From positions 684,501 through 748,500 of the forward strand of contig AP026127.1 in assembly GCA_030295235.1 (NCBI GenBank): a stretch of DNA of 64,000 nt, in the 5' to 3' direction. The position numbers were made by a program, and so were the translations under genes. This DNA comes from Fistulifera solaris (taxonomy: Eukaryota > Bacillariophyta > Bacillariophyceae > Naviculales > Stauroneidaceae). Shown one piece after another: positions 2 to 28,783 of this stretch; position 1 is the first letter of the stretch; each line of letters starts with the position of its first letter. The notes below the pieces were generated by a model. The model made no database searches, had not been told where the DNA came from, and saw nothing but the letters and a program-made list of their open reading frames with translations.

Positions 2-1759
2 ATGCGACAATATCAAGCGTTTGATACCAAGTCTCCGGAAGTGTATTTCACGAATAATAGAGAAAATAACGAAACTGAACACTCGATAACATCAAACGAC
101 GGAATATGCGGCGTTCTTGGCAATCAATCTCCCACGTCTTTATGGGCGAAAAATGTATTGAGTATCTTACGTGCCAGCCAAAGCCCTCTCGATACGAATT
201 ACGTTTTTCAAAACCCGACTGCCCAAGTATTAAAGATCATCACGCCCAGGCTACACAACAGTATGAAATCGAGCCCACGCAATTGGAAAGCCATGGAGCA
301 TGTGATTGAAACAACCAATCGAAGACTCGCTTATTTGAAAGCGAAAAGAGAAGGCCGCTTGGCTGAGGAAGTACGACCGCTAAAAATTCTTGTCATGGGC
401 GGATCCGTGACGAGAGGGATGAACTGTTACACCCGTATCCGGCATTACGATTATAACAAGTGTTGCTGGGCTACTCGACTCGGGACACTTCTCAACAGCT
501 TAGCTGGGGATCGAGTTGTAGATGTACACCTGGCAGCGGTGAGCGCAACGAACTCCGCGACAGGACAAGTCATGCTCGAATACAGCTTATTACCTGAAGA
601 AATGAGAGGCCCTGATATCATTATTAGTGCTTATTCAACGAATGACATGCACGTGTACACCATGCAGGAAGCCCTCAGTCAAAACATTACATTACGTGAT
701 AAAATCTTTGGGATGGCGCAGAATTTTACACGCACCGCGCTCCAGCAGTGCACGAAAGAAGGGAACACGCCGCTGCTGTTTTGGCTCGATGATTATTTGG
801 GAAATGAACAAAGAGAGATAGTTGCCACTTCAGATTTTATTCAAGGGCTTCAGGTTTTGGCCGGCTATTACGGGTTCGGACTCTTATCCTATGCGGATAC
901 GGTACGCGACCTTGTTTACGGCTCAACAACGGAGAGATCGTTTTCACCTCCAGGATGGTACAAAGAGAACTCTGAAATGAAAAGAGAGGTTCACCCACCG
1001 TATCCGATGCACATCGCTGTATCGTACATTATAGCTTACGCGTTCCTTCAACTAACGTCAACGTATTGTGGTCTCGAATCGTGGAATGTGACATCATGGG
1101 AGAGTAGATTAGACTATTACAATGCAGAAGTGCCAGGATTGCCTAACACGCAAGGAAGTAAGGAATCCCTAGACATGCCTCCCCAACCTCGACCGGAGGG
1201 ACTACCTCCGTCTTTGAATACCAAGCTCAAGTTGGAAGACATTTCGGAACTATGGCGTGAAGTTCGTCCAAATACTTGCGACGCTGAAAAGACACACAGG
1301 ACACGCTGTCCTATTGGATGGGTCGGTGCTTTGCGACCAGATCACACTGCAGATGACGTATCAAGTTACTTCCAGCCGTATATTCGACAACCTTTTGAGT
1401 GGGAATGGACAATGGATAGGAAGAAGCCTGGTTGGCTGCCTACGTCGGCGGAAAATGCAACGATGACATTTGATTTTCCTTTGCAACAGGAAATTCATCG
1501 CTTAGTGATATTCTACATGAAAAGCTATGGGGAAATGTGGGAAAATTCGAAGGCCGAACTAAAAATCTATTTGGATGATGACACAGTGGATGAACATGCT
1601 TTTCAATTTTCGCTCGGTGGTTTTCATGATAAGAAAACGAGCGAAGTCTACGTTGAGGAAGTCGATCTACCTCGCGGAGCGTTAAGACGACTTCAAATGA
1701 AAGTTCAACACGCAGCAGGAAAATCCTTCAAGCTAATGGGATTCGCGATTTGCAGTTGA
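2..1759 (+). CDS. SGNH-hydrolase-like protein with C-terminal beta-sandwich region (5' end probably outside the window)
   Basis: The frame is 585 codons, open from the first ATG at base 2, so the true N-terminus may lie upstream of the window. SGNH blocks are visible: GGSVTRG with a candidate nucleophile Ser at residue 135, YSTND with the Asn near 214, and HPPYPMH with a candidate catalytic His at 331 or 337. This pattern is known from GDSL/SGNH esterases and acyl-transferring enzymes. The last 130 residues hold a Trp-rich, beta-rich segment that could be a carbohydrate- or membrane-facing module. No transmembrane segment is visible in the part shown. Substrate is unknown. Two other, much shorter SGNH enzymes lie at 57-59 kb but are not close relatives. 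Confidence 0.7.
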   Translation: MRQYQAFDTKSPEVYFTNNRENNETEHSITSNDGICGVLGNQSPTSLWAKNVLSILRASQSPLDTNYVFQNPTAQVLKIITPRLHNSMKSSPRNWKAMEHVIETTNRRLAYLKAKREGRLAEEVRPLKILVMGGSVTRGMNCYTRIRHYDYNKCCWATRLGTLLNSLAGDRVVDVHLAAVSATNSATGQVMLEYSLLPEEMRGPDIIISAYSTNDMHVYTMQEALSQNITLRDKIFGMAQNFTRTALQQCTKEGNTPLLFWLDDYLGNEQREIVATSDFIQGLQVLAGYYGFGLLSYADTVRDLVYGSTTERSFSPPGWYKENSEMKREVHPPYPMHIAVSYIIAYAFLQLTSTYCGLESWNVTSWESRLDYYNAEVPGLPNTQGSKESLDMPPQPRPEGLPPSLNTKLKLEDISELWREVRPNTCDAEKTHRTRCPIGWVGALRPDHTADDVSSYFQPYIRQPFEWEWTMDRKKPGWLPTSAENATMTFDFPLQQEIHRLVIFYMKSYGEMWENSKAELKIYLDDDTVDEHAFQFSLGGFHDKKTSEVYVEEVDLPRGALRRLQMKVQHAAGKSFKLMGFAICS

Positions 1760-1883
1760 GATTCATTAGCGCCTTCACGGTAAATAGTAGAAAATGAAAA
1801 AGTTCACACTAAGAAAAGACGTTTCCAGTTACATCGTCGTGGCTAATGATACCATAGATCGGATAGAGAGCCTTGTGCGCAAT

Positions 1884-2252
1884 TTACTTCTTCTCATTAT
1901 CACCTGATTGGTTTTGAAGCGACATAATTTGATCAAACATCTTTCTTCGCTTTGGATCTCGCAGATTATTTTGCTGCATCTTCACCACGGCTCTGGCGAG
2001 CGCCTGATTCTTTTCACGTTCTTCCTGTATTTTACCCATCAGATCTTCGATTTCTTCTAAGTCTTGACTATCACACGAGTCTTCGCTATCGGATTCGTCA
2101 AAGCTCTTTCTCTTTCGATTGTTATCCGACGAAGAATCGCTGTCATCGTCCGAGTCATCTGAATCATCAGCGTCTCCGTCGTCACGCGCTTGTTCCGTTA
2201 GACTGAGACGCGCCATATCCGACGTTTCGTCTTCTGCATCTGTTAAACTCAT
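1884..2252 (-). CDS. Small acidic coiled-coil protein, function unknown
   Basis: A 122-residue protein with a genuine ATG at 2252. Residues about 20-60 are a Ser/Asp run (DDSDDSDDDSDSSSD type) followed by a short basic patch (RKRK). Residues about 65-115 form a charged helix with heptad-like Leu/Ile/Met spacing (LEEIEDLMGKIQEEREKNQALA), consistent with a coiled coil, ending in a basic stretch. This looks like a small nuclear or chromatin-associated accessory protein, but I recognise no family. The 218-bp tandem repeat begins about 150 bp upstream of its start, so it occupies the promoter side of this gene. Confidence 0.55.
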   Translation of the reverse strand: MSLTDAEDETSDMARLSLTEQARDDGDADDSDDSDDDSDSSSDNNRKRKSFDESDSEDSCDSQDLEEIEDLMGKIQEEREKNQALARAVVKMQQNNLRDPKRRKMFDQIMSLQNQSGDNEKK

Positions 2253-21049: not shown

Positions 21050-21788
21050 TTTTTACTTGATGATTGTTAACCTTGAACTACAAAATGCCTCTTCCGGAAT
21101 GGTAACGATGATGACGGAGATGAATGAAGTTCATTGTTGTTCATCGGCAAAAGACGATGTTGTCGATAAAATAATTTTGATCCAGGACGGCGCAAATTAG
21201 AGTCAATAAAATAGTAGGAAGCTAAATAGCAAACGTCATCCTTTTCCAAACGACCGTTCAAGGTGCGCGTGGAGGAATGAATTTCGTGCGTGGCGTCTGT
21301 CTGCACTCGGCCTAGTCTTACTGTGGCCAAAACTGTAAGATCAATTACCCACGACTGGTTTTAGTCATGAGACATTCATAGCTTTTTTAGGCAAGCGCCC
21401 CTGTACTTCTTCATGATTGAACAACAAGTAGGTTGTCAAAAGGTAGCATCAGCCTAACTTGATACTTTTGTCATTGAGATTTCATCCAACAATGCTGTCA
21501 GATGGTTCCGGCGCTTCTTATAGTTTCACTGTGGCCCATTCTGTTGGTTCTACGCAAACACGACTGATTTCAGTCACATTCAAAACGGGCAATAAAATTT
21601 TACCAGCCCGTTTTGTTGAAACGCGCAATAATGAGCATCTCTCGACAATAATAACATAACATCGGTTACGTTTCAACACAAGTAATGCAAACTTGTGTGA
21701 TGTTGGATACGCATCGAAATTTACCAGTAAATCGATAGATACTCTTCAAAGCAGCAAGGAAAGTTTATTATTCTGCGAAAGGAGTTTG
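21050..21788. promoter_or_regulatory. Divergent intergenic region, carrier / ICT1-like gene
   Basis: This 739-bp head-to-head region contains short dyads, GACTGGTTTTAGTC near 21353 and GACTGATTTCAGTC near 21563, which share GACTG..AGTC arms. Both could be coincidental. No coding signal was found, and the frame open from 21693 lacks an ATG before 21789. Confidence 0.35.
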
Positions 21789-22472
21789 ATGACTGTTGCC
21801 CAACGACACCAGTTCTCTATCATCTTGGTCATGTTGTGGAGGTTGATTGCGAGAGGAACAGTAGCTTATTCGACCGGCGCTATTTCTCTTCTCAAGTCTC
21901 CACCCCATTGCTTCCGTGTCACTGAATACGGATGGTTAATAAGAGCTCATCGTACCGCTTTTCTTCACCCCGAACGATTCGATTCCTTGAATTTCCGCTT
22001 GTATTCGAGTACCACCCCTCGCAACAACAGCAATGACAACAGCAATCACGACAACTGGAAAGTGCCTGAATACATTGATATTCCCGAGGAAAACTTGGAT
22101 TTCTCGTTTGTTCGATCTTCGGGTGCGGGTGGTCAAAATGTGAACAAAGTCAATTCGCAGGTCCAAGTTCGACTGAACGTACACGAGGCCTATTGGATTC
22201 CATACGAAGTACGGCAACGTTTATTGCAACAACAAGCCAATCGGATCAGTAAGGAAGGTGTCTTGACGATTGCGGCACAAGAACATCGTACACAAGTGGC
22301 CAACCGCAAGGCCGCCGTACAAAAACTGCAGAACATGTTGCTGCAGGCGTGGCCTCGGCCGAAAGAGCGACGTATGCGGCAGGGTATTTCGATCAAAACA
22401 AAAGAGCAACGCAAGGAATTCAAACGTCGAAGGAGCGATGTCAAAGAAGGGAGAAAGAAGGTCGATTTTTGA
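21789..22472 (+). CDS. Class-I release-factor-like protein, ICT1/ArfB type (GGQ domain)
   Basis: From the first ATG in frame (21789) the product has 227 residues. Residues about 1-85 are a Ser/Arg-rich organelle presequence. The GGQ domain follows: FSFVRSSGAGGQNVNKVNSQV, where GGQ is the peptidyl-tRNA hydrolysis loop. The C-terminal tail is highly basic (KEQRKEFKRRRSDVKEGRKK), as in ICT1/ArfB, where it enters the mRNA channel of stalled ribosomes. No codon-recognition domain is present, so this is a ribosome-rescue factor of mitochondrion or plastid rather than RF1/RF2. Confidence 0.9.
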   Translation: MTVAQRHQFSIILVMLWRLIARGTVAYSTGAISLLKSPPHCFRVTEYGWLIRAHRTAFLHPERFDSLNFRLYSSTTPRNNSNDNSNHDNWKVPEYIDIPEENLDFSFVRSSGAGGQNVNKVNSQVQVRLNVHEAYWIPYEVRQRLLQQQANRISKEGVLTIAAQEHRTQVANRKAAVQKLQNMLLQAWPRPKERRMRQGISIKTKEQRKEFKRRRSDVKEGRKKVDF

Positions 22473-22687: not shown

Positions 22688-23200
22688 TCATTGAGATTTC
22701 TTGGATGAATTCGTTTGAGTAGGCGTAGCGGTCGCCGTCGTCCACAGCAACCAGAGAGGAATCGCCAAGTACGGGAAATACAAACTGGTCAAGAGCACAC
22801 GTTCCGTAAAACTTGCCACATGTTCCGATGCCCAAAATGATGTCAAGATCGGCACCAACGTCGTCGACGTGTGCGCTCCGTAGGCGATACATGCGGACCG
22901 AAAGCCATCGGGATACGTCGACCGGTCAGATTGACTGAGATAATAGACTGCGACACAGAAGAAGGGTAACTGAAAGCATAATTCTAGAACCACAAAGGAC
23001 TGAAACCACAACAGGTTGCGAGCATTGCCCATGAGAGGATCGTTGAATGTGGCGACTTCGAATTCTCCCAAATCGATCAAAAATTGAGGGAAGAAGGAGA
23101 GAGGAATGACGGCTTGCCCATCCAAGCAAATGGTGAAGATAATGTGCGAAGCAAAGAATCCGAGGAGTATCAGACGAGTTGTGCCGGTGAATGCTTCCAT
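22688..23200 (-). CDS. TMEM97: TMEM97/sigma-2 receptor family membrane protein (EXPERA domain)
   Basis: A 170-residue protein with four predicted transmembrane helices. It matches human TMEM97 in register: SHIIFTICLDGQAVIP (human SHIPITLFMDLQAVLP), FNDPLM (FKDPLL), WFQSFVVLELCFQLPFF (WFKSFLFCELVFQLPFF), YGAHTSTTLVPIL (YSVHTMTTLIPIL) and LYFPYLAIPLWLL. Conserved acidic residues in LDGQ and LE of the ligand pocket are kept. The family resides in the ER/endolysosome and binds sterols or ligands, with links to cholesterol trafficking and to EBP-type isomerases. The start at 23200 is a true ATG. Confidence 0.9.
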   Translation of the reverse strand: MEAFTGTTRLILLGFFASHIIFTICLDGQAVIPLSFFPQFLIDLGEFEVATFNDPLMGNARNLLWFQSFVVLELCFQLPFFCVAVYYLSQSDRSTYPDGFRSACIAYGAHTSTTLVPILTSFWASEHVASFTERVLLTSLYFPYLAIPLWLLWTTATATPTQTNSSKKSQ

Positions 23201-23579: not shown

Positions 23580-24701
23580 TTAAAAGAAAACGCGCTGCTT
23601 AATCTGAATGCGACCACGACAGATAGGACATTCGGTGCTGACCGATGCAACACATGCATCACAAAGGCAAAGGTGTCCGCACGGGATCAAAACCTGACAC
23701 GATCGCCGGCTGTGACAAACGACACACTTCGATACAGTAAAATCGGCATTCTCCTTCCAGCGTTGAAAGCCGTCCACCTGGTCACTCGAAACTTCCACCA
23801 CTCCACCTTCTCCAAGACCGTTAAACCTATCCACCACAAAGAGACTTTTTCGTGTGCCACTTGTGAGACACGTGACACCATGAAGGACCTGTCTCGGATG
23901 CTGGACTAGCGATCCCGCGGGCCGTTCCAACACATGGAGAACATCGTTGACAAAAAAGACAAGACGCCCCCCTACATACTCCGACGGATCATTTAAGGCA
24001 ATTTGCGATGTCCTGGTGGCATAGCCGCCGTCACAGTGAAAGTTGATGCAGGCATTGGTCGGACCTTTTGTCATACGAAGAGCCACTTTGGACCCACCTC
24101 CACTTTGTCGAAAAGTTCTTTGAAGCTTGGTTAGTACGGAATTGGGTGTATCTTCTTGAAGAAAGGGCTCAAGAAGTTGTTCAAACTGCTCATCTGGGAC
24201 TACGAGGCGCATATCAACTCGATTGGGCGCATCATCAGTCTCAGTTGCTTCCCACATATAATCGAGGAAGCTACAGATGAGCTCGCATTGATCTGCGGTC
24301 AAAATTCCAGCATTTTCTTGATAGCGAAAGGTGCTATATGGATCCGCTCCTTCACGTGCAGCTTTCTCGCGAAGTAGATCCAGAGGGACAGGTTCATTAG
24401 CACGTTGTTCGTCCGTCAGCATCAGATAGCGAATCAAGGGGTTAGAAGGGTCGTTGTAAGTGAAGGTGCTGATCATTCCACGCAACCTCAAAGCCAGATG
24501 AAGGGTTGATTTTGCCCTGATTTTGTAGGCGGCAAATGTGCGTCCATCTTCAAGTTGCATTCCTGCAAAAATGAGACGTTGTTGGTCTTCGGGGACTCCT
24601 TCCCTTTCGGCTAGCAGTCTCTTCGCCGTTTCAATAGTATCACGCGATTTTACGGAGATGGCAACTGTCTTGCCTATTAATGTCTTCACATAGATCTGCA
24701 T
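23580..24701 (-). CDS. Ubiquitin / 2OG-Fe(II) oxygenase / RING finger fusion protein
   Basis: From the ATG at 24701 the product has 373 residues and three modules. Residues 1-76 are a near-complete ubiquitin ([33 protein letters not shown]). K6, K11 and K27 are kept, while K48 is M, K63 is A and the final Gly76 is M, so normal processing and K48/K63 chains are unlikely. Residues about 120-290 are a prolyl-4-hydroxylase-like double-stranded beta helix with the iron facial triad HxD (H222, D224) and H274, plus R284 for 2-oxoglutarate. Residues 326-362 are a RING-HC finger ([18 protein letters not shown]). The fusion suggests oxygen- or 2OG-gated ubiquitin ligase activity. A 223-bp satellite begins about 180 bp upstream. 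Confidence 0.9.
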
Positions 24702-24883
24702 GTTTTGCAAATAAAGCTTTTTATTGCAATACCTGGTACACCGAGAGTTTTGTGTTGCTTCGATCGATGCTTGTTGCTTTTTTCTAAGCAAAAGTGTGAG
24801 GAAACTGGCGTATACCCGCGTGCGTTACATTAGTACCCAGTTAGTCTGTCCATCTGCAGCAATAAAACAGTGACACATACTTA

Positions 24884-26735
24884 CAGAAATTCTGTGATAG
24901 TCCCGAAATTCTGGACCATTGGTTTCGATCCTATCGAGATGCTGTGCACGTTCCAAAACTTCTGGACAAGGTGTTTGGGATCATAACGAAAGCGAGTGGG
25001 CGTCCTAGAAAATCTGGACACGGTGTTTTCGTTCATATCGAAAGAAAGAGCATTTTCCAGAAATTCTGGAATTGCTATTACTACGTATTTCTCATCATTC
25101 ATCATACAGAATTTCTGTGATGGTCCAGAAATTCTGGACCATTGGTTTCCATCCTATCGAGATGCTGTGCACGTTCCAAAACTTCTGGACAAAGTGTTTG
25201 GGATCATAACGAAAGTGAGTGGGCGTCCTAGAAAATCTGGACACGGTGTTTTCGTTCATATCGAAAGAAAGAGCATTTTCCAGAAATTCTGGAATTGCTA
25301 TTACTACGTATTTCTCATCATTCATCATACAGAATTTCTGTGATAGTCCAGAAATTCTGGACCATTGGTTTCCATCCTATCGAGATGCTGTGCACGTTCC
25401 AAAACTTCTGGACAAAGTGTTTGGGATCATAACGAAAGCGAGTGGGCGTCCTAGAAAATCTGGACACGGTGTTTTCGTTCATATCGAAAGAAAGAGCATT
25501 TTCCAGAAATTCTGGAATTGCTATTACTACGTATTTCTCATCATTCATCATACAGAATTTCTGTGATGGTCCAGAAATTCTGGACCATTGGTTTCCATCC
25601 TATCGAGATGCTGTGCACGTTCCAAAACTTCTGGACGAGGTGTTTGGGATCATAACGAAAGCGAGTGGGCGTCCTAGAAAATCTGGACACGGTGTTTTCG
25701 TTCATATCGAAAGAAAGAGCATTTTCCAGAAATTCTGGAATTGCTATTACTACGTATTTCTCATCATTCATCATACAGAATTTCTGTGATAGTCCCGAAA
25801 TTCTGGACCATTGGTTTCCATCCTATCGAGATGCTGTGCACGTTCCAAAACTTCTGGACGAGGTGTTTGGGATCATAACGAAAGCGAGTGGGCGTCCTAG
25901 AAAATCTGGACACGGTGTTTTCGTTCATATCGAAAGAAAGAGCATTTTCCAGAAATTCTGGAATTGCTATTACTACGTATTTCTCATCATTCATCATACA
26001 GAATTTCTGTGATGGTCCAGAAATTCTGGACCATTGGTTTCCATCCTATCGAGATGCTGTGCACGTTCCAAAACTTCTGGACAAAGTGTTTGGGATCATA
26101 ACGAAAGTGAGTGGGCGTCCTAGAAAATCTGGACACGGTGTTTTCGTTCATATCGAAAGAAAGAGCATTTTCCAGAAATTCTGGAATTGCTATTACTACG
26201 TATTTCTCATCATTCATCATACAGAAATTCTGTGATGGTCCAGAAATTCTGGACCATTGGTTTCCATCCTATCGAGATGCTGCGCACGTTCCAAAACTTC
26301 CGGTTTGGGACCATAACGAAAGCGAGTGGGCGTCCTAGAAAATCTGGACACGGTGTTTTCGTTCATATCGAAAGAAAGAGCATTTTCCAGAAATTCTGGA
26401 ATTGCTATTACTACGTATTTCTCATCATTCATCATACAGAAATTCTGTGATAGTCCAGAAATTCTGGACCATTGGTTTCCATCCTATCGAGATGCTGTGC
26501 ACGTCCCAGAATTTCTGGAAACGATGTTTGAGATCTTTAATCTTAACGAAAGAAAGTGGGAATTTCAGAAATTCTGGAAACTGTAGAATACGTTCCAGAA
26601 ATTCTGGACAACAACTTATTTCCTATCACACAGGAATTCTGTGGTGTTTCAGAAGTTCTGGACAATAAATAATTTTGTCATAATATCAAACAGAAATTCT
26701 GTGGTTTCCAGAAATTCTGGACCGTGCAGTTTTTT
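24884..26735. repeat. 223-bp higher-order satellite array with palindromic monomers
   Basis: Unit starts recur at 24884, 25107, 25330, 25553, 25776 and 25999 (exact 223-bp steps), then 26222 (215 bp, internal 8-bp loss) and 26437. Full units are almost identical. Each unit contains four related monomers of about 50-60 bp, each headed by a variant of CCAGA-N3-TCTGG: CCAGAAATTCTGG, CCAAAACTTCTGG, CTAGAAAATCTGG and CCAGAAATTCTGG again, plus an ACAGAATTTCTGT dyad at the joint. The right edge (26500-26735) consists of diverged single monomers, as in alpha-satellite-like higher-order arrays. Best dyads read GGTCCAGAAATTCTGGACC. The array lies between head-to-head genes (ubiquitin-2OG-RING and YtoQ-like). 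Confidence 0.92.
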
Positions 26736-26860: not shown

Positions 26861-27520
26861 ATGTTAAGCAATACTTTACGTCAAATACAGCGCCAAAGCG
26901 TTCGTGCTTTCAGTTCCGAGACAAAAATCTGGAATGTTTACCTTTCGGGTGAGTCGAGTCTTTTCTGCCAGCACGTCTTTGCCGAAGCACGCAACTCACG
27001 TCTACGCCTCTCTGCCAACCTCAGGAGAGATTCATTCCGACTGGAGAAATGTCATTGCGGAAGGAGTACAAAGAAGAATTTGCCCGTACGACTCTCTTCA
27101 CCGAACCTCAATCATGAAGACAGTGACGATTGCGGTGCCATCATTCTTGGTATGCAAGAAGAGCGTCCCAACTGGGATCGATTGGGAGCGAAAATGAACG
27201 ATATTCGTACCAAGACTTTGCTTTCGCAAGCTGATATTGTTGTGGTGTGCTTTGGAGAAAAATACCGACAATGGAATGCCGCATTCGATGCCGGCTATGC
27301 GGCCGCTCTGGGCAAACCTTTGATTACGTTGCATCCACCGGAAATTTCGCATATGCTCAAAGAAGTCAATGCTTCTGCTAATGTCGTTTGTGAAGAACCG
27401 GAGCAAGTAGTACAAACACTGGCTTATGTTATTCTGGGAGAGTTACCTTCAACACCCAAAGATGGAGATCGTTTTATTCCCATCGCCGATCGACTCGGCA
27501 AGGGAAATCCGAATCCGTAA
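26861..27520 (+). CDS. YtoQ-family protein, mitochondrial-type presequence (one frame break)
   Basis: The ATG at 26861 begins MLSNTLRQIQRQSVRAFSS, an Arg/Ser-rich presequence. An intron at 26949-27024 (GTGAGT..CTCAG, 76 nt) joins VYLSG to EIHSDWRNVIAEG. One extra A in AAA at 27070-27072 then gives VQKKNLPVRLSSPNLNHEDSDD and joins the remaining frame, for 194 residues. The whole follows bacterial YtoQ: VYLAGEIHSNWR, NHDRSD, ILGMQ, ADIVVVCFGEKYRQWNAAFDAGYAAALGKPLI. The fold resembles nucleoside 2-deoxyribosyltransferases, but the biochemical function of the family is not established to my knowledge. The bacterial-like sequence suggests organellar or transferred ancestry. Confidence 0.85.
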   Translation: MLSNTLRQIQRQSVRAFSSETKIWNVYLSGESSLFCQHVFAEARNSRLRLSANLRRDSFRLEKCHCGRSTKKNLPVRLSSPNLNHEDSDDCGAIILGMQEERPNWDRLGAKMNDIRTKTLLSQADIVVVCFGEKYRQWNAAFDAGYAAALGKPLITLHPPEISHMLKEVNASANVVCEEPEQVVQTLAYVILGELPSTPKDGDRFIPIADRLGKGNPNP

Positions 27521-27557: not shown

Positions 27558-28783
27558 TTATATGATCTCCATCCAGTCATCTCCCTCGCCAACTTCATCA
27601 TGTTGACTCTCCAAGATTCGAGCCAACCAATCGGAAAAGAAATCCATCCCCAACCAGTTGAGTGCTTCTAATTCTACTTTATACTGTCGCATCTGACGAA
27701 GTTCTTCAATACGCCTCTCGGGATCTTCTGCTGTAGCAATCCACCCGTGAGTTCCGCTAAGTAGATGTCCTTCCAATCGCTGCTCGTCCACTTCCGTCAA
27801 TTCTTGAAAGACCTGCCTCGGCAAGGCTCTGCCCTCTCGTTCGAGCTGTTGTATTTGACACGGTCGCAGTCCAATCCACTTCATCGAAACGCCCACATTG
27901 CTACTACGACGGCTTTCTTGATAATTGTGCAATACCATGACCCCGAACGGATTACTATCACACACTCCGTAGACCGGCAAACGAAGTACTCGATGCAAAT
28001 GATGGACGCAAGCACGCGTTGCCAAGTCAGGAAAGCCACGACCCGTCACAATGACACACGGATACCGCTCGAAAAAGCGATCTTCCGACAAGCGTTTGTA
28101 AATGCCTTCTTTTCAACGACCAGAATGCATTTTGCCGCGACCGTGGATATATCAAAGTTCAAACGCTGACCCAACCATTCACTGCCGATGGTCGCACCCT
28201 GTATGGATTGCAGGTGCCGTCCATCCAAGACGCAAACGCCATCTTGTAGTAATTGCACATCACCCGTCCACCATCCCCGCGGCGATGCGTGTAATCCCAA
28301 GGCATGTCGAGGTACCCCCAACAGCTCGGCCGCGTCCCAAATGGCGGCGCAGCATTCCTTTGGAGAAGAGTAGAGGCATGGCAACGCATAATATTGCCAT
28401 TGTGAGCGATGTAGAATGTGCACAGCAAACAAAGACACGACAAACCACTGCTACGGTTCTAAACTCACCTTGTGCGAACGAAAATGCGTGACATAAAAAT
28501 AGTAAACTTCACGTGTGGTGGTAGTACGGTTCGCTAGCAAAAGAGCGTGGCAATAGGAGAGCACTAACACAATGTTGGTGAAAGAGCGACATTGATTCCA
28601 TTGACCGAATGCTTTGGCGATACCGTTTCCTTCCAGTGCGGGGAGTCGATTTTCATCCAATTGATTCACTATATCATGAATCAAACTTTCAATTCGTGAG
28701 ATTACAGTCTCGGGTGTAACATCTTCTTCCAATTCTTCTTCATGATTGTCGTTCAATGACGCATCGTCGACTTCGTTCGCCAT
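27558..28783 (-). CDS. SPO11: SPO11 meiotic topoisomerase VIA-like protein (one frame break)
   Basis: The protein makes meiotic double-strand breaks. Exon 1 (28469-28783) carries the winged-helix region with the catalytic Tyr in TTTREVYYFY (Tyr94/95). An intron at 28358-28468 (GTGAGT..AAAG, 111 nt) joins HFRSHK to ECCAAIWDAAELLGVPR. The Toprim domain is in exon 2 (CVIVTGRGFPDLATRACVHHL, VYGVCDSNPFGVMVL), with Glu in VVEK and DxN in place of the usual DxD. The frame breaks after ILVVEK, and one added G near 28108 restores VVEKEGIYKRLSEDRFFERYP and makes 371 residues, typical for SPO11. The TopoVIB-like partner is not in the window. Confidence 0.92.

Follow-up and report, generated by a model that had tools for sequence, protein, structure and literature searches.

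One uninterrupted diatom reading frame joins a ubiquitin-like domain, a predicted 2OG-Fe(II) oxygenase and a cIAP-like RING finger

We analysed a 64,000-nucleotide stretch of the genome of the diatom Fistulifera solaris (assembly GCA_030295235.1, contig AP026127.1, positions 684,501 to 748,500 of the forward strand; this whole stretch is called the window, and position 1 is its first letter). On the minus strand, positions 23580-24701 hold a single intron-free frame of 373 codons, with the ATG at 24701 and the stop codon ending at 23580. From the N- to the C-terminus, the product comprises a ubiquitin-like domain (residues 1-76), a 2-oxoglutarate (2OG)-Fe(II) oxygenase domain of the P4H/PKHD type and a RING finger (residues 326-361). 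The same architecture is present at three loci (on C7, which holds the window, on C8 and on C1), and a 5' remnant was found at a fourth (on C2). The catalytic and zinc-binding residues are kept in the three copies, and codon constraint extends across the modules. We propose, with a probability of roughly 45 %, that the protein is a single-polypeptide RING ubiquitin ligase in which the oxygenase captures and hydroxylates a client and the ubiquitin-like domain acts as an activator on the backside of the ubiquitin-conjugating enzyme (E2).

Results

The sequence-only reading of this DNA had placed three modules in one uninterrupted frame with the catalytic residues in place, and the frame, the domain matches and the residue positions agree with it. 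Its assignment of H222-x-D224, H274 and R284 was exact to the residue, and the C-terminal RING-HC finger that it described is borne out by a Pfam RING match to residues 324-366 and by eight zinc ligands from C326 to C361. Its description of residues 1-76 as ubiquitin holds for the overall similarity (Pfam E 5.2e-21) but not for the terminal Gly, which is Met76, nor for K29, K33, K48 and K63, which are missing.

The Pfam ubiquitin profile (PF00240) matched residues 3-74, and 47 of the 76 residues of this domain (24474-24701, minus strand) are identical to ubiquitin. Release by deubiquitinases at a Gly-Gly site and conjugation both need the terminal Gly-Gly of ubiquitin. Here, the Gly75-Gly76 end is replaced by G75-M76 in all three copies that reach this position, so that the domain can be neither released nor conjugated. 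In the window copy, all four of the lysines named above are replaced (K48 by M, K63 by A), and the I44 patch retains L8, I44 and H68, with V70 changed to A. Judged by these residues, positions 1-76 are an integral ubiquitin-like domain. A cleavable ubiquitin fusion such as ubiquitin-eL40 or eS31 was rejected on the grounds of the G76 to M replacement. Elsewhere in the genome, a frame on C5 (C5:1472000-1475000, frame 433-1776, minus strand) has an internal ubiquitin-like domain ending in RLMGG, followed by a long C-terminal part.

The oxygenase domain (residues 131-300; 23802-24311, minus strand) was not matched by any Pfam 2OG family, whether the whole protein or residues 79-320 were searched. 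It was matched by the 2OG-Fe(II) oxygenase family phrog_61 (E 1.5e-8), by the NCBIfam YbiX PKHD hydroxylase profile (3.4e-6, far under its curated cut-off), by PiuC in the PDB (E 5.4e-4) and by a hidden Markov model built from 65 phage PiuC-like proteins (E 6.9e-11 at a search-space setting of 10000). H222, D224, H274 and R284 sit in alignment columns that are invariant or nearly invariant among 54 sequences. The iron-binding HxD motif (codons 222-225, H-C-D-G; 24027-24038, minus strand) is kept in all three copies, and with the distal iron-ligand His and the 2OG-binding Arg (codons 274-284; 23850-23882, minus strand) it completes an HxD...H triad plus basic 2OG residue in register with the P4H/PKHD superfamily. 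Modelling the whole protein from its single sequence gave an uninformative structure (mean predicted local distance difference test score, 37). An alignment-based model of the oxygenase region has a predicted double-stranded beta-helix fold that matches PiuC, PHD2 and algal P4H. In this comparison PHD2 tied with PiuC, with an identity to PHD2 of 11-15% among the matches listed, and the sequence matches are of the PKHD type. Across the genome there are 46 matches to PF13640, none of them on C7. Of the other oxygenases found there, the nearest is a separate frame with HxD, GG and H...R motifs (C1:2367500-2371500, frame 1348-2118, plus strand; 44% identity over 66 residues, E 0.002), which, like the window oxygenase, was missed by Pfam and matched by phrog_61.

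The RING-HC finger and its C-terminal tail occupy residues 323-373 (23583-23735, minus strand; Pfam zf-C3HC4_3, PF13920, E 6.6e-11). Alignment with cIAP1 assigned the eight zinc ligands to C326, C329, C341, H343, C347, C350, C358 and C361, which follow the C3HC4 order and are kept in all three copies. Among solved structures, cIAP1 (4.3e-8) and XIAP (9.6e-8) matched over RING and tail, and CGRRF1 (1.9e-8) over the RING only, ending before the tail. The finger has CPICRG with Arg at the linchpin place, and the terminal ...KQRVFF puts R370 and F372 on the R-x-F of cIAP1. R362, R370 and F372 are present in the window and C8 copies; in the decayed C1 copy, residues 362 and 372 are both Ser, so that the Arg linchpin and the tail Phe are lost. 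The Arg linchpin and R-x-F tail give the RING its cIAP/XIAP-like character; the protein does not belong to the IAP family proper, as a Pfam scan at E up to 1 found no BIR domain. An E2 exon with the stretch CSAGPVGDDMFHW is present on C38 of the same genome; we take it to be of the UBE2D type, with the first Ser of CSAGPVGDDMFHW corresponding to the backside Ser22. For cIAP1, two tail residues, Arg614 and Phe616, have been described as extending across the dimer to keep the donor ubiquitin in place in trans, and a ubiquitin that lacks the GG terminus as binding UbcH5B on its backside and stimulating transfer by cIAP1 (PMC6349121). The Arg linchpin has been described as important for ubiquitin transfer (PMC12326332).

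A genome-wide DNA search returned three copies of the gene, namely that in the window, a syntenic one at C8:586596-587724 and one at C1:972022-973100, together with three 53-base matches at ubiquitin loci. All three have the three modules in identical order, and the C8 and C1 copies align with the window gene from the same ATG to the same end. The window from ~7 to 38.6 kb mostly aligns, in order, to C8:570001-600000, the C8 stretch compared. F. solaris is described as allodiploid, and guide RNAs have been chosen that are common to two homoeologous genes (PMC13276009). The genome has exactly two sites for each of two published guide targets (on C38/C39 and on C7/C8) and a single site for a primer published for one homoeologue (PMC13276009). 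Because the genome is allodiploid and a target shared by two homoeologous genes lies on C7 and C8, this pair of chromosomes is most likely homoeologous.

The window copy is the only intact one. In a three-way alignment, the C8 copy differed by three single-base frameshifts and one in-frame 6-base insertion (pairwise BLAST of the C7 and C8 genes gave seven frameshift gaps). The C1 copy carries a 5-base insertion and has lost 34, 9 and 3 bases in three places and a single base in each of two more. On C2, the homoeologous site has only codons 1 to ~61 left (C2:921517-921692) between sequences that correspond to the flanks of the C1 copy, and ~1.07 kb is deleted; this remnant was not among the matches of the genome-wide search. 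The simplest history would be that two loci already existed in both parental lineages, which gives four positions, one of them intact. As all three C8 frameshifts involve one base each, and two of them fall in runs of C, they might stem from errors in the assembly. Against this, five of 12 neighbouring frames had no frameshift gap over 2247 codons; the other seven had 1-5 gaps each, some of which may be introns. The sequence-only reading had argued that a lack of any homologue with more than one of the three domains would speak for a local assembly or gene-model fusion. This situation did not arise, as the C8 and C1 copies carry all three domains in order, though in broken frames. With the order repeated at two further loci, an assembly join or gene-model fusion is very unlikely.

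We examined constraint by comparing the C7 and C8 codons. The ratio of nonsynonymous to synonymous rates (omega) was 0.29 for the whole gene, 0.53 for the ubiquitin-like domain, 0.24 for the oxygenase domain (residues 131-300) and 0.41 for the RING. The connecting parts were constrained as well. Residues 77-130 (24312-24473, minus strand), which form the linker and the N-terminal part of the oxygenase region, with a conserved MISTFTYND start and helices in the model, gave 0.15 over 54 codons. Linker residues 301-322 (23736-23801, minus strand), which include a predicted helix ahead of the RING (model residues 228-240, at the low-confidence end of the model), gave 0.24 over just 22 codons. Constraint therefore spans modules and linkers. 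When the window frame was imposed on the other copies, none of the complete codons was a stop in C8 (372 codons) or C1 (354 codons).

The lineage leading to the window copy accumulated 41 amino-acid changes, whereas 56.9 would be expected in the absence of selection (lowest value in 3000 simulations, 43). In this base run, the 36 sites at which all three copies differ were assigned to the other lineages. A repeat of the base simulation gave one of 3000 runs as low as 41. When the 36 sites were given to the window lineage, 66 changes stood against a mean of 86.3, and when they were dropped, 41 stood against 56.8, with 0/3000 simulations as low in either case. None of the 12 catalytic and zinc residues changed on this lineage (expected 2.0), which is weak evidence alone (chance of none, 0.11). 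The C8 and C1 lineages behaved similarly (60 changes vs a simulated minimum of 61, and 90 vs 92), so their breaks look recent relative to their own history.

Relatives of the three-part protein beyond its own genome were not found in virus, phage and prokaryote collections, which were not built to cover eukaryotes. In viral contigs, seven stretches fitted the pattern for the whole protein and none was a relative; a DNA pattern for MISTFT...D...P had one match, taken as chance because no listed frame of at least 60 amino acids there holds the motif. In GTDB genome contigs, 45 stretches fitted the pattern for the oxygenase region, again with no relative. Phage records gave nothing for the whole protein at 1e-5; for the oxygenase region, 24 records matched at E up to 1, all of them over less than 80% of the query. 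Among the best 20 of these 24, most of the annotated ones were 2OG-Fe(II) oxygenase, PiuC or ybiX, one was a ferrochelatase and one hypothetical. We rejected a viral or bacterial transfer of the whole protein since no relatives were found, which is a weak argument.

Just upstream of the gene, at 24882-26535, lies a tandem array of a 223-bp unit (7.5 copies) that is absent at the matching C8 site. Its satellite family has 176 matches in the genome; among the matches listed (40 of 251 candidates scored), these lay on C1, C3, C5, C7 and C9 and none on C2, C4, C6, C8 or C10, and the family may mark one subgenome. Beyond the array are a YtoQ-type nucleoside 2-deoxyribosyltransferase (26861-27520, plus strand; PF11071), which has a frame-broken homoeologue on C8, and a Spo11/TOP6A Toprim frame (27558-28091, minus strand; PF21180). 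On the other side are an RF-1 domain protein (21693-22472, plus strand; PF00472) and an EXPERA protein (22688-23200, minus strand; PF05241). A scan for bacterial promoters and terminators, a type not applicable to a diatom, found 2 and 1, with 1.7 and 1.7 expected.

Discussion

In the mechanism we propose, the middle P4H/PKHD-type oxygenase domain would bind, and probably hydroxylate, a client protein in the cytosol or nucleus. A dimer of the cIAP-like RING at the C-terminus would recruit a ubiquitin-loaded E2 of the UBE2D kind and ubiquitinate either this client or the protein's own chain. At the N-terminus, the ubiquitin-like domain would most likely occupy the backside of the E2, standing in, in tethered form, for the free ubiquitin by which dimeric IAP RINGs are stimulated, and in this position it may keep the ligase in a fast state. 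It is plausible that hydroxylation would be coupled to ubiquitin transfer in cis, and oxygen sensing by the protein in particular is hypothetical.

Several observations weigh against this proposal. The I44 patch is retained only in part, with V70 replaced by A in the window copy and L8 by S in C8, and of the modules the ubiquitin-like one shows the weakest constraint (omega 0.53). The structural model was made from an alignment of PiuC-like phage proteins, and the match to the PiuC fold is therefore partly built in. The top solved relative of the RING is CGRRF1 and no IAP (1.9e-8 vs 4.3e-8). Since the C8, C1 and C2 copies are broken or deleted, the function may be dispensable. The evidence for constraint is itself qualified, in that the omega of 0.29 and the synonymous divergence (dS) of 0.45 were the highest of 13 genes, which makes this gene the most loosely constrained in the comparison, the 12 others ranging over 0.02-0.27 and 0.22-0.42, respectively (long frames with enough codons; 15 were hand-picked, of which two had no matching codons).

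We regard as doubtful a more far-reaching version, a self-contained 2OG- and oxygen-dependent ligase that would hydroxylate its client, recognize the product and ubiquitinate it, with the tethered, unconjugatable ubiquitin as a permanent E2-backside activator. Such a protein would correspond to PHD-VHL in a single chain, having arisen independently in diatoms.

A Rad23-type shuttle, in which the ubiquitin-like domain docks to the proteasome or a ubiquitin receptor and the RING tags, for delivery, those clients that the oxygenase has found, seems rather unlikely to us. An integral, non-conjugatable ubiquitin-like domain in all three copies reaching residue 76 would suit it, and Rad23 is the best NCBIfam match of the domain (2.1e-7, far under the curated cut-off); against this, the domain is nearer to ubiquitin itself, as its identity and Pfam score show, and scanning with Pfam at E up to 1 revealed no UBA domain. 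The protein might instead be a sensor in which binding of 2OG, iron or oxygen reshapes the chain and switches auto-ubiquitination, so that the level or activity of the ligase follows 2OG or oxygen. We think this unlikely: a fold match shows no function, and the 46 PF13640 matches reveal many other oxygenases of this class, so that an oxygenase domain alone is no pointer to sensing.

The window copy could also be the last open frame of a drifting set without a role, as one intact position of four inferred ancestral ones and the top-ranking omega and dS would suggest. The low count of changes on the window lineage (41 vs a mean of ~57, with 0 or 1/3000 neutral simulations as low) speaks against such drift, as does, more weakly, the lack of any change among the 12 catalytic and zinc residues, and we consider it quite improbable. 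That the modules are translated apart, through a gene-model fusion, an assembly join or separate transcripts, can be dismissed almost entirely given one stop-free frame, the same order at C8 and C1, constrained linkers and no GG cleavage site between the ubiquitin-like domain and the remainder; gene-model fusion itself was rejected on the repeated order and the linkers.

The proposed RING ligase with a client-binding oxygenase can be tested directly in F. solaris, as a knockout method based on CRISPR ribonucleoproteins has been published for this species (PMC13276009). As predicted from its sequence, it would be a RING ligase of several domains, unusual in its client module and equipped with a ubiquitin-like domain of its own. 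The sequence-only reading knew of no described protein of this order; we likewise found none with a ubiquitin-oxygenase-RING order in the open-access literature, as judged by titles and abstract openings of the papers listed, but the novelty is narrowed by plant proteins that already combine a JmjC-type oxygenase fold with a RING, as reported in PMC8657654.

These plant proteins, JMJ24 and OsJMJ715, have a 2OG-oxygenase fold and a RING in one chain, with E3 ligase activity reported (PMC8657654). They belong to the JmjC family and are reported there to be without H3K9 demethylase activity, whereas the oxygenase residues of the diatom protein are intact. The RING of OsJMJ715 is N-terminal, and the relevant passages of that paper mention no ubiquitin domain for plant JmjC-RING proteins (PMC8657654). 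IAP ligases (cIAP1, XIAP, BIRC7) share with the diatom protein a C3HC4 RING at the extreme C-terminus (residues 325-372 align, including the R/K-x-F tail) and, in the case of cIAP1, the CPICRG type with Arg linchpin, but the diatom protein has no BIR in the Pfam scan and its N-terminal half is made up of ubiquitin-like and oxygenase domains. The likeness to CGRRF1, its top-scoring solved RING, covers the RING only and halts before the tail. UHRF1 has the domain order ubiquitin-like domain, reader domains, SRA, RING. It is described as combining an integral ubiquitin-like domain, a client-recognition part and a RING in one chain (PMC9464978), as the diatom protein does. The middle part of the latter is an oxygenase, and the Pfam scan (E up to 1) found no Tudor, PHD or SRA domain.

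On the oxygenase side, the PKHD-type hydroxylases PiuC and YbiX are bacterial and phage enzymes, for which we know of no ubiquitin-system modules. KDM2A and KDM2B hold a 2OG oxygenase and a ubiquitin-ligase module (F-box) in one chain, but these are of the JmjC and SCF types rather than P4H-type and RING. In the PHD2-VHL-HIF and SKP1 P4H-SCF systems, a P4H-type hydroxylase is functionally paired with a ubiquitin ligase as separate proteins. Whereas PHD2 appears to share its fold with the diatom oxygenase, the diatom protein is one chain with its own RING. Where oxygen sensing by hydroxylation and ubiquitination is known, it involves separate proteins. Should a single diatom protein combine both activities with a built-in ubiquitin activator, this would be a different wiring of metabolite or oxygen state to protein turnover, and a compact object for the study of E2-backside activation in cis.
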